Translations under genes and position numbers: made by a program
Shown here: positions 2,522 through 39,184 of the stretch, piece after piece
Layout: each line of letters begins with the position of its first letter
Numbering within the stretch: the stretch's first letter is position 1
Notes under the pieces: generated by a model
Told to the model about the DNA's origin: nothing
Database searches by the model: none
What the model saw: only the letters and a program-made list of their open reading frames with translations
Assembly (NCBI RefSeq): GCF_000317635.1
Contig: NC_019779.1
Location: forward strand, 310,001-374,000
Length of the DNA: 64,000 nt
Direction of reading: 5' to 3'
DNA from: Halothece sp. PCC 7418
GTDB lineage: Bacteria; Cyanobacteriota; Cyanobacteriia; Cyanobacteriales; Rubidibacteraceae

Positions 2522-3157
2522 TCACCGACTTAACCACGCGATCGCGCTGCGAATCCACTCTTCAGGGTTGGGATTTTTGGCGAGTAAGGAATCTTGACTG
2601 ATGACAGAGAGGGCTTGTTCGATTTCTTCTTTCGAGTAACCTAAGGCGAGTAAGGTCATTTCAATATCTTCGCGGATGGCGGGTTTGGGTGCAACGCTTT
2701 CCTCTCCAGTGACGACTAAACCTGCTTCTGTGCGCCATTGTGCTAACTTACTTTTTAATTCTAGGGCAATGCGTTCGGCAGTTTTTTTACCCACACCGGG
2801 GGTTTTGGCTAAGAGTTGGGTATTTTCGGCGACAATGGCTTCTACTAAATCTCTTAAGCCGAGAGTATCAATGAGCGCGATCGCGACTTGCGTTCCAATC
2901 CCGCTAACAGCAGTAAGTTTCCGAAATAAATCTCGTTCGGCTGCACTATCAAATCCATATAACACAATCGCATCATCTCGAATTTGCTGATGGGTAAAAA
3001 TTTGCACTGATTCGGAATTTTTTTGATCTAACTCTCGCGCTAACCGTGATGGAATTTGAATTTCATATCCCACCTGATTCACTTCTAAAATTAAGTGGAC
3101 TCGGTTTCCTGTAATTTTGACAAGGTTGATAACATTTCCTCGTAAATAACTAATCAT
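2522..3157 (-). CDS. ruvA: Holliday junction branch migration protein RuvA
   Basis: RuvA forms the tetramer that holds Holliday junctions for the RuvB motor during recombinational repair. The 211-residue protein starts MISYLRGNVINLVKITGNRV, as expected for domain I (OB fold). Domain II carries helix-hairpin-helix motifs (LTAVSGIGTQVAIALID at about residues 81-97 and KTPGVGKKTAERIALELK at about 117-134). Domain III (EMTLLALGYSKEEIEQAL) ends near the C-terminus. Length is normal. As usual in cyanobacteria, ruvB is not adjacent. Confidence 0.97.
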   Translation of the reverse strand: MISYLRGNVINLVKITGNRVHLILEVNQVGYEIQIPSRLARELDQKNSESVQIFTHQQIRDDAIVLYGFDSAAERDLFRKLTAVSGIGTQVAIALIDTLGLRDLVEAIVAENTQLLAKTPGVGKKTAERIALELKSKLAQWRTEAGLVVTGEESVAPKPAIREDIEMTLLALGYSKEEIEQALSVISQDSLLAKNPNPEEWIRSAIAWLSR

Positions 3158-3230: not shown

Positions 3231-4757
3231 TTATGCCCCTACCGCTTCTTTAGCTGCGTAGATGACCTCAGCATTAATATTTTCAATGCCATTTTCCCGA
3301 GCATATTTTTCGGTATTGCGCTTCACTTTCCCACGGACAAACCCAGGGATTTTATTGAGTTCTGCTAAGCCGTCTTTTGTCCAGTTAAGGTCAGATTCAG
3401 CAGAGACAGTTTTTGTAATCACTTCTTTGGTATCGTGTCCACCGAAGATTTCTAAGAGGTGATCTTCCATTCCTAAAGTAAAGGAATTATACACTAAATC
3501 AACAATTTGATTCGCGCCTTCATACCCTAAGAACGGACGATAGCCGACGGGGAAGTCTTGAATGTGAATCGGTGCTGCAATCACCCCACAGGGAATATTG
3601 ATGCGTTTCCCGACATGGCGTTCCATTTGTGTGCCGAAAATAGCTGCGGGTTCTAAACGCGCGATCGCGTCCCCAATCGCCCCATTGTCATCACTGATTA
3701 AGACTTCATCACAGTAATCTTGCACTTGTTCTTTGAACCAGTCAGCATCATAAGTGCAGTAAGTCCCTGCTAAAACAACGCGGATGCCCATTTCACGGGC
3801 TAAAATTTTAGTTAGCGCGATCGCGTGGGTATTATCGCCAAAGACAACCGCTTTTTTCCCCGTTAAGTTTTGGCAATCAATGGAACGAGAAAACCAGGCT
3901 GCTTGGGAAACAAACCGCGTCTGATTATCAATATAGCTCTCATAATCGACGTTTGCCCCTTGGTCGTTCAACACTTTCTGAATCGTGCGAATACAACGGG
4001 CGGTTTCCACGATTCCCATTGGTGTTACCTGTACAGAAGGCATCCCAAAGGTTTCTTCGAGATAGCTTGCAGCCATGGGGCCAACTTCCCGATAAGGAAC
4101 TAAGTTAAACCAGGCTTGGGGAAGGGTTTTTAACTCATGCACCGAAGCACCCTGGGGAATAATCTGATTGATTTCGATTCCGAGATCAGCCATTAACCGT
4201 TTCAACTCAGTGAGATCATGTTGATTGTGAAAGCCGAGGGTTGTGGGGCCAATAATATTAACGGAAGGGTTCTCAGTTTTCCCTTCTGGAAGGTCGCCAT
4301 TTTTCTGCGCCTTATTCAGATAGAACTTCACCACCTGCGCCAACGTTTTATCCGCAGCTTGCAACTCATTAACGCGATAGTGATTGACATCGGCTAACAT
4401 GACATCCCCTTGACTATCCAACTGCGCCCGTTGGACAAAGTTTTCTAGGTCTTCTTGCAGAATGCTTGAGGTGCAAGTGGGAGTAAGAATCGTTAAGTCG
4501 GGATGGATTTCTGAATCTTTGCGAGTAATGTTATCAACCACTTTTTCTTGCGACCCTCTGGCGAGAACTTTGCGATCAACAACGCTGGTGGTCACTGGAG
4601 TAAAATTGCGATCGCGCTCTAACATTGACCGCATAACATTGAAATAATCATCTCCTAAAGGGGCGTGCATAATGGCGTGAACATTTTTAAACGAGCTAGC
4701 CACGCGCAATGTCCCGATATGAGCCGGACCCGCGTACATCCAATAAGCCAGTTTCAT
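3231..4757 (-). CDS. chlB: Light-independent protochlorophyllide reductase subunit B
   Basis: ChlB and ChlN form the nitrogenase-like catalytic component that, with the ChlL iron protein, reduces protochlorophyllide to chlorophyllide in the dark. The 508-residue protein starts [40 protein letters not shown], which is diagnostic for ChlB, and has the [13 protein letters not shown] and [15 protein letters not shown] segments. The C-terminus holds the small ChlB-specific domain ([27 protein letters not shown]). It is a single-gene unit here; chlL and chlN are not in the window. Together with chlD at the other end it shows a chlorophyll-producing organism. Confidence 0.97.
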
Positions 4758-5198
4758 AGATTAACGTTTGTTTTCCGTGTGAGCATTTACGTTGCATTGT
4801 CTCAAATGTCTGTTGCAAACTTTTCAGGAGATCTTTCCTAGCCAAAACCGCCCAACCCTTTACTCTGAGCTTTTTTTCTCTTATTTTGACCGCGATTTAA
4901 ACAACACAAATTTTGTTTAATCTATAGGTTTCTTAAAGTCTTGGAAAACTTCTTAATCTTTGTTGTTTGGTCATTCGTCATTCGTCATTCGTCATTAGTT
5001 ATTAAACAACAAAGGACAAAGGACGAAGGACAAGGGACAAAAAATGGTCACTGGTCATTCGTCCCCCTCAACTGAATCGGAAACACTGATTCTATAAATT
5101 GATAGAAATCGGGGATCTCCCCTGGCACTTTGATCCCAAATCGATGTAGCATGATCCAAAAGCGAAATCATTCATTTTAATAAAACTTTATCCCCGTT
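4758..5198. other. Intergenic region between chlB and the thioredoxin gene
   Basis: This 441-base divergent intergenic region holds no gene I can support. It must contain the promoters for chlB (leftward) and the thioredoxin-like gene (rightward). Its middle carries two heptamer arrays (4971-4998 and 5011-5038), described separately. No RNA gene or clear riboswitch was recognised. Confidence 0.6.
4971..5038. repeat. Two short tandem heptamer arrays
   Basis: Three exact copies of TCATTCG and one variant (TCATTAG) run from 4971 to 4998. After a 12-base spacer, four copies of a second heptamer follow at 5011-5038 (AAAGGAC twice, GAAGGAC, AAGGGAC). Such short tandemly repeated heptamers (STRR-like) are known from intergenic regions of many cyanobacteria. 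Their role is unknown and copy number varies between strains. Confidence 0.85.
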
Positions 5199-7536: not shown

Positions 7537-7821
7537 GTCTTTCGACTTGTTTGAACCTCACTGTCGAGGATGAGAGGTTGATGTTAGCTCTCAACCTTCT
7601 TTTGTTCTATACCTCGATCTTCGCGCTGATCGGCTCTAAAAACGGCTACCTTGAGTTAGAAATCAGTGATTCGTCCTCTATCATGGGTTATTGGTCGTTG
7701 GTTAGAGATAGCGTTTCTGTGTCTGTTGAGAATAGTGACCAGTGAGCAGTTACCAGTTACCAGTTACCAGTTACCAGTTACCAAAGAACTAAGAACTAAG
7801 AACTAAGAACTAAGAACTAAA
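7537..7821. other. Intergenic region upstream of ftsH with heptamer arrays
   Basis: The 285 bases between ftsH and the FMN-binding gene hold no convincing gene. A 64-codon frame at 7551-7745 has no recognisable product and lies in the ftsH promoter region. The right end consists of two heptamer arrays that run up to the stop codon of the neighbouring gene. Confidence 0.55.
7747..7820. repeat. Paired 5 x 7-bp tandem arrays
   Basis: Five perfect copies of CAGTTAC occupy 7747-7781 and five perfect copies of GAACTAA occupy 7786-7820, separated by only four bases (CAAA). Each array is exactly 35 bp. The second array ends one base before the stop codon (complement of 7822-7824) of the oxidase-like gene. 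These are STRR-type cyanobacterial heptamers with two different units placed side by side. Confidence 0.95.
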
Positions 7822-8641: not shown

Positions 8642-11600
8642 ATGGTCAGAGAGCTTGAGCGTAAACAATCGACAAACTTCCCAGAAAACGCACCTGTGGC
8701 GAATCCTGTGTTTTTTCGGACGTATAGCCGACGAACCGAGGATGGAAGAGAAACATGGGAACAGGTGCGCGATCGCTGCATTTCTGGGTTAGTCAAACTC
8801 GGTCAACTCACCGCAGAGGAAGCCCAACTCTTAGAAAAAACCATGACTCACCTCAAAAGTCTTCCTGCTGGGCGTTGGCTGTGGGTGGGGGGAACCCAGT
8901 GGCTGGAAAACCCCAAAAACTATTCTGGCGCGTATAACTGCACTTCTACTAATGTTGTAGATTGGCGAGCCTTTGGCTTGATGATGGATTTAGCTATGAT
9001 GGGTTGTGGAACTGGGGCTGTCTTGGAAGAAAAATATATTAACCAGTTACCCGCCATTCGTAATTATCTCAATATTTCTATTGTCAATGAAATTGGCACG
9101 GTACTTCCAGAAGCCCGTCAAGAAGAAACAACCGTTAGAATTAGTGATCCAAAAAAGGTAAAAATTTGTATTGGTGACTCCCGCGAGGGCTGGGTGCAAT
9201 CGTATCAGGCGTTATTAGAACTCTCGAGCAATGAAGACTTGGACACAACGGTTAATATTGAAATCGATCCCAGTCATGTGCGTCCCGCAGGAGAAGTCTT
9301 AAAAGGCTTTGGTGGTGTCGCCAATCCGATCAAAATTCCAGAACTCTATCCTCGTCTTGCGAAAATTCTCAATCGGGCGCAAGGGCGGAAACTCAACGCA
9401 GAAGAATGCTGTTTGTTGATTGATGAGGCTGCTGCCACTGTGGTTGCCGGCAATATTCGGCGCTGTTTGCCAGAATATGCGTTAGTTCATACGGCAAGAG
9501 GATTAGTGGCGATTAAAGATATTAAAGTGGGTGATCGCGTGCAAACCCCTCTGGGTTTCCGTCGTGTGGTGGATAAATTCGATCAAGGAATCCAAGATGT
9601 TCGAGAAATCGAAACCAATGGAACATATCCTCAAGCAACGGAGAATCATCGCATGGCGGTTTTAAGTTCAGCCAATGGGGATTATGTCTGGAAACAAGTA
9701 GGAGAATTGGAATCGGGCGATCGACTGCTGCACAATACCAAAATTTTAGCGGGGATTCCTACGCAACTCCCAGCAGATGAAACCAGTCTTCGTCCCCTTC
9801 AAAGTCGAACAGCAAAAGCAATTTCCATTCCAGATTTAAATCCTGATGTCGCTTGGTTGATTGGTTTTACTCATGGTGATGGATATGTCAGTCTCGGACG
9901 GAATAAGCACAATAAGCCTTATGGGAGCATCAATTGGGCGACAGATGCTGAACTTGCGCCATTGATCGAAGAAAAGCTAAATCGCGCTTTAGCAAATTTT
10001 GGGGTATCTGCAACTAAACAAACCTCTGAAAATGAAAACACCGTTCGTTTTGTTTGTTCCTCAATTCGACTGACAGAATACTTCTTCAAAAATATCAAAC
10101 GCCCAAAAGAACCCATCGAGATTCCAGATTTTATCCTACAGGGAAGTGTCGAGACTCGCGCTGCTTATTTAGCAGGAATCATGGATAGTGATGGTTCTGT
10201 AAAAAATCGTCCTCCTCATTTAGTTTGCACAGTTTACCCTCAATTTGCCCGTCAAATTGCTTCCGTTTTATCAAGTTTGGGGATTGCGGGACGAATCAAG
10301 AAAACGATTCCGCAAAAGCTGAACTGGCGAACCAGATATCATGTTTGTCTTCCAGCCTTAAAAGGAGAATATAACAAATTAATTGCTTCTCATGCTGTCA
10401 AAGGAGAATTAAAAGTCGGTTTGAAGATGTACGGTTTTACCTTGACTGGGGAAATGATGCGTGAAGCCTATACCTATTCGGAAATGCAGAAAATGGGTTT
10501 CCAAGGTAGCCGAAAAGTTGATTCTAACTATGAACGTTATCGGGTGGAGTCGGAAGTAGAAATGGACATCCCTGTTACGTTTAAGCAACTGGGTCAAGTG
10601 TTCGCTGTTCAAACCTATGATATTGAAGTGGAAGATGCTCACTGTTTCTACTGTGATGGCTATCTGACGCACAACAGTGCAGGGATGAGACAGTTTGATA
10701 GTGACTCCCCCTTATTAAAACAAAATCTTTGGCAACCGGATGCAGAGGGAAACTGGCGCATTGATCCTGATCGCGATGCACTGCGAATGGCAAATCATAC
10801 CCGAGTGTATCACCATCAGCCCAGTTTAGAAGACTGTGTTGAAGCAGTTAGAAGTCAGTTCTATTCTGGAGAAGGGGCGATTCAGTATGCCCCAGAGGCG
10901 ATCGCGCGAGGCAATGCTGATTTATTAAATACGTTTGAACTTAAAGAACAATTTATACAGGCTTATCAATTGGGACACGGAGAAAAATTCTTAAGAAATT
11001 TATTGCCTGAAAGTCCCTCTCAGAGAGAACTTAATCATCGTTTAGAACGCTATGCTCTTAATCCGTGTGGCGAGATCACGGGTAGTAATTTTCACTGTAA
11101 TCTTAGCGAGATCCACTTAAATCTCATTGATCCAGAAAACGAACAAGAACAAACTGAAGCCTTCCAAGCTGGTGCCTTAGCCGTTGCCACTTTACTGAAT
11201 CATCAGTTCCAAGAACCGCGCTATCAGTATAGTCGAGAACTCGATCCGATTGTCGGGGTTTCCTTCACGGGATTATTTGATTTCTTTGTGCAGGCGTTTG
11301 GTGTGGAATGGCTACGCTGGTGGGAGAAAGGTCGCCCAGAGACGGAAGCAGGATTAGTCTTTAAGCAAAAAGAACAAGCGTATCTGGAAAAATGGCGCAA
11401 AATTGTCCATGAAACGGTTTGGGATTATTGTGACCGCCATAATATTAAACGGCCCAACCGTTGCACCACAGTCCAACCCAGTGGCACGAAATCTCTGCTG
11501 ACAGGGGCTTCTCCTGGTTGGCATCCCCCGAAAGCGGTGCGGTTTATCCGTCGGGTAACATTTGGGAAAAATGATCCTGTGGCGTTGGCTTGCATTGATT

Positions 11601-12133
11601 ATGGTTATAGTGTAGTTCCCTCGCAGTCGGATAAAGATGAAAACGGAAACCTGCTTAAAGATCCTTTTGATGAGCGGTGTACAGAATGGTTAGTGGAGAT
11701 TCCTGTTGCGGTTCCGTGGGCGGATTTACCAGGTGCGGATGAGGTTGATATCTCTAAGTTCTCTGTCTTAGCTCAGTTTGATTTTGCCATGCAAGTACAG
11801 AAACACTATGTCACGCACAATACATCGGCAACGTTGGAACTGCGAGAACATGAAATTGAGGATTTAGGACAAGCGATTTATAGCGCGATCAAAAATAATG
11901 AGGGCTATATTTCTGCTGCGTTACTCGCCCGTTTTGATGCGTATCAGACTTTCCCGCGTTTACCGTTTGAACCAGTGGATGAGGCGACCTATAATCAACT
12001 GATGCGAGAGGTGGAAGAACGGCGGAAAATGGACGATTTTCATTCCGCATTGCTGAAGTATGATCTGGGAGAACTTTCAGAAGCGGGTCCGACAGGATGT
12101 GACACTGATCAATGTATGTTCCCTTTACAGTGA
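8642..12133 (+). CDS. nrdJ: Adenosylcobalamin-dependent ribonucleotide reductase with intein
   Basis: Class II ribonucleotide reductase makes deoxyribonucleotides using adenosylcobalamin to form the thiyl radical. The 1163-residue precursor is 759 residues once the intein (residues 275-678) is removed, close to the monomeric triphosphate reductase size. Extein motifs include AYNCTSTNVVDWRAF (first redox Cys), ALNPCGEI with Asn807, Cys809 and Glu811 as catalytic residues, TVQPSGTKSLLTGASPG, and a C-terminal CDTDQC pair expected to re-reduce the active site. No NrdA/NrdB genes lie near. I saw no cobalamin riboswitch upstream. The downstream metalloprotease gene starts 13 bases after the stop. 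Confidence 0.96.
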   Translation: MVRELERKQSTNFPENAPVANPVFFRTYSRRTEDGRETWEQVRDRCISGLVKLGQLTAEEAQLLEKTMTHLKSLPAGRWLWVGGTQWLENPKNYSGAYNCTSTNVVDWRAFGLMMDLAMMGCGTGAVLEEKYINQLPAIRNYLNISIVNEIGTVLPEARQEETTVRISDPKKVKICIGDSREGWVQSYQALLELSSNEDLDTTVNIEIDPSHVRPAGEVLKGFGGVANPIKIPELYPRLAKILNRAQGRKLNAEECCLLIDEAAATVVAGNIRRCLPEYALVHTARGLVAIKDIKVGDRVQTPLGFRRVVDKFDQGIQDVREIETNGTYPQATENHRMAVLSSANGDYVWKQVGELESGDRLLHNTKILAGIPTQLPADETSLRPLQSRTAKAISIPDLNPDVAWLIGFTHGDGYVSLGRNKHNKPYGSINWATDAELAPLIEEKLNRALANFGVSATKQTSENENTVRFVCSSIRLTEYFFKNIKRPKEPIEIPDFILQGSVETRAAYLAGIMDSDGSVKNRPPHLVCTVYPQFARQIASVLSSLGIAGRIKKTIPQKLNWRTRYHVCLPALKGEYNKLIASHAVKGELKVGLKMYGFTLTGEMMREAYTYSEMQKMGFQGSRKVDSNYERYRVESEVEMDIPVTFKQLGQVFAVQTYDIEVEDAHCFYCDGYLTHNSAGMRQFDSDSPLLKQNLWQPDAEGNWRIDPDRDALRMANHTRVYHHQPSLEDCVEAVRSQFYSGEGAIQYAPEAIARGNADLLNTFELKEQFIQAYQLGHGEKFLRNLLPESPSQRELNHRLERYALNPCGEITGSNFHCNLSEIHLNLIDPENEQEQTEAFQAGALAVATLLNHQFQEPRYQYSRELDPIVGVSFTGLFDFFVQAFGVEWLRWWEKGRPETEAGLVFKQKEQAYLEKWRKIVHETVWDYCDRHNIKRPNRCTTVQPSGTKSLLTGASPGWHPPKAVRFIRRVTFGKNDPVALACIDYGYSVVPSQSDKDENGNLLKDPFDERCTEWLVEIPVAVPWADLPGADEVDISKFSVLAQFDFAMQVQKHYVTHNTSATLELREHEIEDLGQAIYSAIKNNEGYISAALLARFDAYQTFPRLPFEPVDEATYNQLMREVEERRKMDDFHSALLKYDLGELSEAGPTGCDTDQCMFPLQ
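9464..10675 (+). mobile_element. Intein with LAGLIDADG homing endonuclease in NrdJ
   Basis: The 404-residue insertion interrupts the conserved reductase segment GNIRR|SAGM. It begins with Cys275 (CLPEYALVHTARGLVAIKD), carries the TxxH splicing block (TENHRMAVL) and ends with VEDAHCFYCDGYLTHN followed by extein Ser679: the Cys1, terminal His-Asn and +1 Ser required for standard class 1 protein splicing. In the middle are two LAGLIDADG-type motifs, LIGFTHGDGY around residues 406-415 and LAGIMDSDGS around 510-519, both with their catalytic acidic residue. It therefore looks capable of both splicing and homing. Confidence 0.96.
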
Positions 12134-22979: not shown

Positions 22980-23382
22980 AGGGGGTCTCCTCTCTAGACA
23001 GTTTTAACTGTTATTCCCGTGATTGGGAATGAACCGTTAAAGAACAATCATTTCGTAAATTTATGATCACTATTGTTGTCTTTCGATACAACAAATTGAT
23101 CCCTTTTTACGGTTCACTGCTGTACCTTACTTGTAAATAATAGAGGGTGGTTTCGACAACTGTTGACACTCCTTAACAATACTTAAAGACTTGAGAAAAC
23201 TTGCTGAAATAACCACTGTGCCTTTTTTATGTCTTTCCAAAAGTCAAGGCAAGATTCTTTATTTGTTACAAACTGCAATAATAAATTAATATTTATGTTA
23301 GTTATATGTCTTTTGTTATTTGTTATTTGTCCTTCGTTCTTTGGTAACTGGTCAATGAGAACACAGGTGGTTAGCATTTGAC
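22980..23382. other. psaA upstream region with degenerate heptamer array
   Basis: These 403 bases between psaA and sbcD hold no supported gene. The segment next to psaA should contain its promoters. At 23312-23346 a degenerate heptamer array is visible (TTTGTTA twice, TTTGTCC, TTCGTTC, TTTGGTA). A 64-codon minus-strand frame at 23183-23377 runs over this repeat and is not credible as a gene. Confidence 0.55.
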
Positions 23383-39017: not shown

Positions 39018-39184
39018 TTTTTAGTTCTACAGGAACACAGTCAGAGAGCCATCCGTTTCAAACGGATGGACGGGGCTTTCTAGGTGCGGAGGAAACCTCC
39101 GCACACAGCCCCTCATGAATGACACTTAAAGGCTTTAGCCTTTTGTATCCTACAAACTTATGCAGGATATGTTATTGTGAAAGT

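Follow-up and report, generated by a model that had tools for sequence, protein, structure and literature searches.

An intein in the ribonucleotide reductase gene of Halothece sp. PCC 7418 and the probable recent sharing of its core

An intein with homing-endonuclease motifs inside a B12-dependent ribonucleotide reductase gene raises the question of whether its insertion site and sequence type are shared with neighbouring genomes or were recently acquired. This question was addressed for one such element in a window of 64,000 nucleotides (the whole stretch of DNA analysed) of Halothece sp. PCC 7418, genome G000. Sequence comparison established the anatomy of the element, its patchy occupation of the insertion site, the conflict between intein and host-gene trees, and a recently shared tract with its limits. 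The preferred reading, with a probability of about 0.8, is that this is a bifunctional intein whose core (codons about 29-396) was recently shared with the line of genome G002, without the exteins or the outermost ends of the intein.

The interrupted reductase gene

The host gene is an ORF of 1163 aa on the forward strand (8642-12133), as are all features described here. Its product scored 739.8 bits against TIGR02505, the equivalog model of adenosylcobalamin-dependent ribonucleoside-triphosphate reductase (RTPR; cut-off 340.05), which places it in RTPR. The second NCBIfam row, NrdJ_Z, was far under its cut-off, and Pfam RNR domains were also matched. An N-extein of 274 codons (8642-9463) and a C-extein of 485 codons plus stop (10676-12133) enclose an intein of 404 aa (9464-10675; codons 275-678 of the RTPR gene). 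The junctions read ...GNIRR|C...HN|SAGMRQ, with Cys1 starting at 9464 and the terminal Asn ending at 10675; this insertion point, GNIRR|SAGM, is called site a. The sequence-only reading had proposed an intein in a B12-dependent ribonucleotide reductase at exactly these positions, and both TIGR02505 and Pfam agree with it.

The splice residues are Cys1, a TxxH block (TENH, residues 59-62; 9638-9649), the terminal His-Asn (H403-N404; 10670-10675) and the extein Ser at +1. Between the splicing blocks lies a homing-endonuclease domain (residues 122-330; 9827-10453, limits approximate and set by eye) with two LAGLIDADG motifs that retain their acids, LIGFTHGDG (residues 132-140; 9857-9883; D139) and LAGIMDSDG (residues 236-244; 10169-10195; D243). 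Pfam matches to LAGLIDADG_3 (4.2e-13) and Hom_end (2.4e-7) were both over the gathering scores. With these residues the splicing domain would excise itself from the RTPR precursor and join the exteins. The endonuclease would cut RTPR alleles that lack the intein, in the vicinity of the GNIRR|SAGM codons, and repair of the cut allele would copy the intein in.

The intein protein was the sole match in the Halothece genome at E 0.001 (five candidates scored). This genome is a single contig of 4,179,170 bases and G002 a single contig of 3,781,008 bases; GC content was 43.2% in the window and 42.3% in 400 kb of G002. In an excerpt of PMC5694629, Halothece sp. PCC 7418 (4.18 Mb, 42.92% GC) and Dactylococcopsis salina PCC 8305 (3.78 Mb, 42.44% GC) are both recorded as coming from Solar Lake.

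Two further intein sites in the C-extein are empty in the window, namely site b (NP|CGE, 11068-11069), which is occupied in G002-G008, and site c (FH|CNLSE, 11098-11099), which is occupied in G002, G005 and G006. The cysteines at both sites are presumably active-site residues. Only site a is filled in G000 and G001 and only site b in G003, G004, G007 and G008, whereas G002, G005 and G006 have inteins at all three. Shortly before the empty site b, at about 10916-11035, the C-extein was strongly diverged from the six relatives compared, with 37-58% nucleotide identity in two 60-nt windows against 67-95% in the preceding four (global alignment with indels). Beyond this stretch the RTPR gene was 78-84% alike in genus members. 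The best protein match of the stretch (62%) was in a genome of another family, and it may mark the loss of a site-b intein via recombination with a foreign empty allele.

Some other features in and around the RTPR genes were recorded. A group I intron was detected near site b in locus L097 (2561-2811; Rfam RF00028, 89.4 bits), the sole match in the 14 loci scanned, and a candidate near site b in L009 (5594-5885; 28.7 bits) was below the gathering score. A group I intron has been described in a Nostoc RNR gene (Meng et al. 2007, cited in an excerpt of PMC12702839). Candidate frameshifts in the RTPR exteins of G001 (L045, about 3300-3340) and G005 (L049, about 3085-3115) may be real or sequencing errors. 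Short stretches of the window at 4967-5043, 7734-7820, 23298-23358 and 39025-39150 had several matches elsewhere in genus members and look like dispersed repeat families.

Occupation of site a and conservation of the intein

RTPR was present in 9/9 genomes of the family sample and the intein in five of them. Four of the six genus members have the intein at the same codon, with the G005 copy split over two contigs. When the nrdJ/RTPR genes of relatives were checked for lack of the insertion at this codon, as had been suggested from the sequence, site a was uninterrupted, exactly and in frame, in G003, G004, G007 and G008. Of the 195 genomes in the order sample, 106 had an RTPR match, and 38 of these 106 carried a site-a intein. 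Any match to an intein was found in 40 genomes, including two (G122 and G138) with weak matches that were left unplaced. At least 57 order genomes had an unbroken RTPR stretch through site a (counted by eye); G144 is among them, yet it also has an occupied copy.

The 38 site-a inteins comprised 16 of the type seen in the window (type I), 15 of type II (378-396 aa, with a Ser-Asn end) and seven of type III (393-395 aa, with a CIAYG start), and one codon is therefore common to three divergent sequence types. Loci L066-L079 carry type II at the site-a codon and were missed by the first search pattern. L215 and L216 were without a site call and were kept out of the counts. The site-a intein of L216 (1102-1530), from G237 outside the order, is of type II; by its look it is a mini-intein with the endonuclease lost, and it has a frameshift at the N-terminal junction. 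L215 (G207) has inteins in another kind of reductase. No short type I copy lacking the endonuclease was found in searches that rank long matches first. In the class-wide sample, 78 of 388 genomes had some match to the intein. The match was strong across all 407 model positions and free of stops in 51 of the 78 (counted by hand), and weaker, in the type II score range, in 13.

An alignment of type I inteins was assembled from 51 rows, the window included, of which 47 were distinct (four sequences are present in two collections). The intein starts and ends at identical codons in all 51 rows, which is not expected by chance, and T59 and H62 were kept in every row. C1, H403 and N404 were also invariant (51/51), although the extraction pattern accounts in part for the conserved termini and full length, as it demanded a C/S start, an H/S/G-N/Q end and at least 250 residues with no stop; TxxH was not demanded. 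Extraction with this pattern succeeded at 65/65 loci tried. The first catalytic acid (D139) was Asp in 48/51 rows and the second (D243) in 47/51, and the window has both. The earlier observation that the splice residues are all present and that the two LAGLIDADG motifs have intact acids is thus borne out by both the sequence and the alignment.

In the endonuclease region, dN was 0.018 and dS 0.134 between G000 and G002 (dN/dS about 0.13), and dN was lower than dS in 8/8 other pairs computed. By this codon-level measure the endonuclease is under purifying selection, and together with the intact residues this gives indirect support to the view that the intein may be active.

A core probably shared with the line of G002

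The histories of the intein and of the exteins were compared by trees. The extein DNA tree paired G000 with the empty-site genome G004 (100/100) and rejected G000+G002 (p-AU 0.00016), as did the N-extein plus the proximal C-extein alone (p-AU 0.0143). The extein protein tree had the same topology (96/96), with G000+G002 not rejected (p-AU 0.13). In the intein tree, G000 was paired with G002 (100/100), G000+G001 was rejected (p-AU 0.0003) and three genus inteins formed one clade (100/99). The extein nearest to that of G000 is therefore that of G004, which has no site-a intein, and the nearest intein is that of G002; on these sequences, the intein tree conflicts with the host-gene tree. As to whether the element is shared or recently acquired, the site is widely shared but the intein sequence of the window departs from the history of its host gene. 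An ancient or lost homing had been associated with carriage by all close relatives under a matching phylogeny, and such a pattern was not found, as only 5/9 family genomes carry the intein and the trees conflict.

Between G000 and G002 the inteins had 95.9% DNA identity (50 nt different), and fourfold-site identity was 157/178 (88%). The latter was 46-47% in three extein pieces and 33-56% in 13 other ORFs, these being the ones with a match in the G002 DNA compared among the 23 that have at least 150 aa and lie within the window's first 40 kb. Codon constraint was considered as a cause of this likeness and was ruled out, because the G000 and G001 inteins agreed at only 50/124 fourfold sites (40%). 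In the first 40 kb and five genus members, no other match longer than 500 bases was above 88% among the matches listed. Most of the intein DNA looks recently shared with the line of G002, and the surrounding gene does not.

An old, immobile intein inherited vertically within the genus would agree with its presence at the same codon in most members and with the single clade of the three genus inteins. This history is nevertheless very improbable given the conflicting trees, the intact endonuclease acids with their low dN/dS, and a fourfold-site identity to G002 far over the background; for the core it is already contradicted. Contamination or mixing during assembly is a still weaker account of the likeness to G002, and one that is hardly credible: no evidence in its favour was found, each genome is one contig, with contamination listed as 0.07 and 1, the exteins on both sides and both intein ends differ, and the inteins as a whole are 50 nt apart.

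A phage, virus or plasmid was also considered as carrier, and the searches returned no confirmed relative. In viral contigs, 18 stretches fitted the pattern and none passed tblastn; phage records gave 24 matches, none of which reached 60% identity or 80% query coverage; and the one match in plasmid records was annotated as a DNA ligase in Natrinema.

The likeness to G002 is unevenly spread along the intein. Third positions differed at 9 of the first 28 codons, at 24 of the 368 core codons and at 5 of the 8 end codons, which delimits a low-divergence tract at codons 29-396 (9548-10651). The best limits were codon 29 (26-32) and codon 396 (393-398), and moving them to the intein edges cost 12.86 log units. 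This value was reached in 0/500 shuffles within the intein (largest gain 10.95), a fairer test than the Fisher tests, which were run after the limits had been chosen. Both limits lie in protein-conserved stretches, VQTPxG and HCFYCDGYLTHN. With the G001 intein as a stand-in for the resident copy, the sole exact run of at least 17 nt shared with the G002 intein (nt 1153-1184, 32 nt) adjoins the right limit, and there was none near the left limit.

A recipient with an empty site would have had no intein ends of its own to retain, and site a was therefore probably already filled in one or both lines when the core moved; and as the recently shared stretch is the interior of the intein, the latest event was probably not a simple homing into an empty codon. 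A resident copy in the line of G000 is not seen, since its nearest relative, G004, lacks a site-a intein. The first 28 intein codons had a dS of 0.56 between G000 and G002, compared with 1.18 in the N-extein, and Tyr5 occurred only in these two among the 51 type I rows. The ends therefore share some later history, and the exchange probably had more than one step, as far as these alignments indicate.

Homing is the standard route for endonuclease-bearing inteins, and the conventional explanation would be that the complete intein recently homed into a vacant site, once, or twice from a single donor, and that its ends diverged afterwards, either by chance or through another local recombination. 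The empty sister allele in G004, the shared Tyr5 and a left limit without a long shared DNA run to anchor recombination all speak for it. It is nonetheless rather unlikely, as the excess of third-position differences at both ends was not matched in any shuffle, and co-conversion of the extein flanks is not visible: over two 90-nt flanks G002 agreed with G000 at 75/90 and 74/90 positions, much as the empty alleles of G003 (73 and 76) and G004 (73 and 72) did. Flank co-conversion had also been suspected from the last 64 N-extein residues of G005, which are 98% identical, and was set aside; the last 90 nt of G005 agreed at 76/90, near G002 (75) and G003 (73), and the match is therefore mostly protein conservation.

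The preferred reading remains that the intein core, including the endonuclease, was recently shared with the line of G002. Both alleles in the last exchange may already have had an intein at site a when they recombined. More specifically, but only tentatively and at somewhat less than even odds, the core would have been swapped between species at occupied sites by recombination with its end points in the conserved stretches close to the two splice junctions. If so, a swap of the interior renews the endonuclease and leaves the flanks free of the co-conversion expected from homing. The locus offers a natural case in which near-saturated silent sites in the host DNA and a near-unchanged intein core occur within one gene and the limits of exchange can be read to a few codons, and it bears on how an endonuclease persists once its target site is full. 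This core exchange was not found among the open papers listed, as judged by title or the start of the abstract, and it is not described in the excerpt of PMC4071816.

Structure and known relatives

An AlphaFold model of the intein, built from a 13-row alignment, was weak overall (mean pLDDT 61.8, with residues 318-404 under 50), and ten-residue blocks from 121 to 310 had values of 63-90 with one exception at 49. The best Foldseek match was PI-PfuI of Pyrococcus furiosus (PDB 1dq3; E 5.7e-11), and the endonuclease part matched entries of I-DmoI (E from 1.6e-9). The model, of modest confidence, is consistent with a LAGLIDADG endonuclease fold. PI-PfuI is likewise an intein-encoded homing endonuclease, and its host protein is also a ribonucleotide reductase. 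It had only 20% identity to the window's intein, however, and superposition on the whole chain was poor (TM 0.35-0.39, rmsd 24.8); the two are likened by fold and not by insertion site. The LAGLIDADG homing endonuclease I-DmoI resembles the endonuclease domain more closely (target TM 0.68-0.75), but it is intron-encoded according to the entry title and is not known to have a splicing domain, whereas the endonuclease of the window sits in an intein.

The element is an ordinary one, of a kind already known. The rir1-g list in Table 3 of PMC4071816 (2014) has an entry for Halothece sp. PCC 7418 (YP_007166732.1), and Table 1 of that paper gives rir1-g as an allele in ribonucleoside-diphosphate reductase. 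The window's intein is probably this catalogued RIR1-g, the match being by strain listing rather than by sequence or codon. Dactylococcopsis salina appears there under gyrB and is not named in the rir1-g list shown. The variable filling of sites a, b and c in one RTPR gene is comparable to the haloarchaeal MCM inteins, for which an excerpt of PMC10643990 describes several variably filled sites per gene and interference between neighbouring inteins. The MCM inteins belong to another gene and another domain of life and were experimentally tested, whereas the RTPR case is drawn from sequence.
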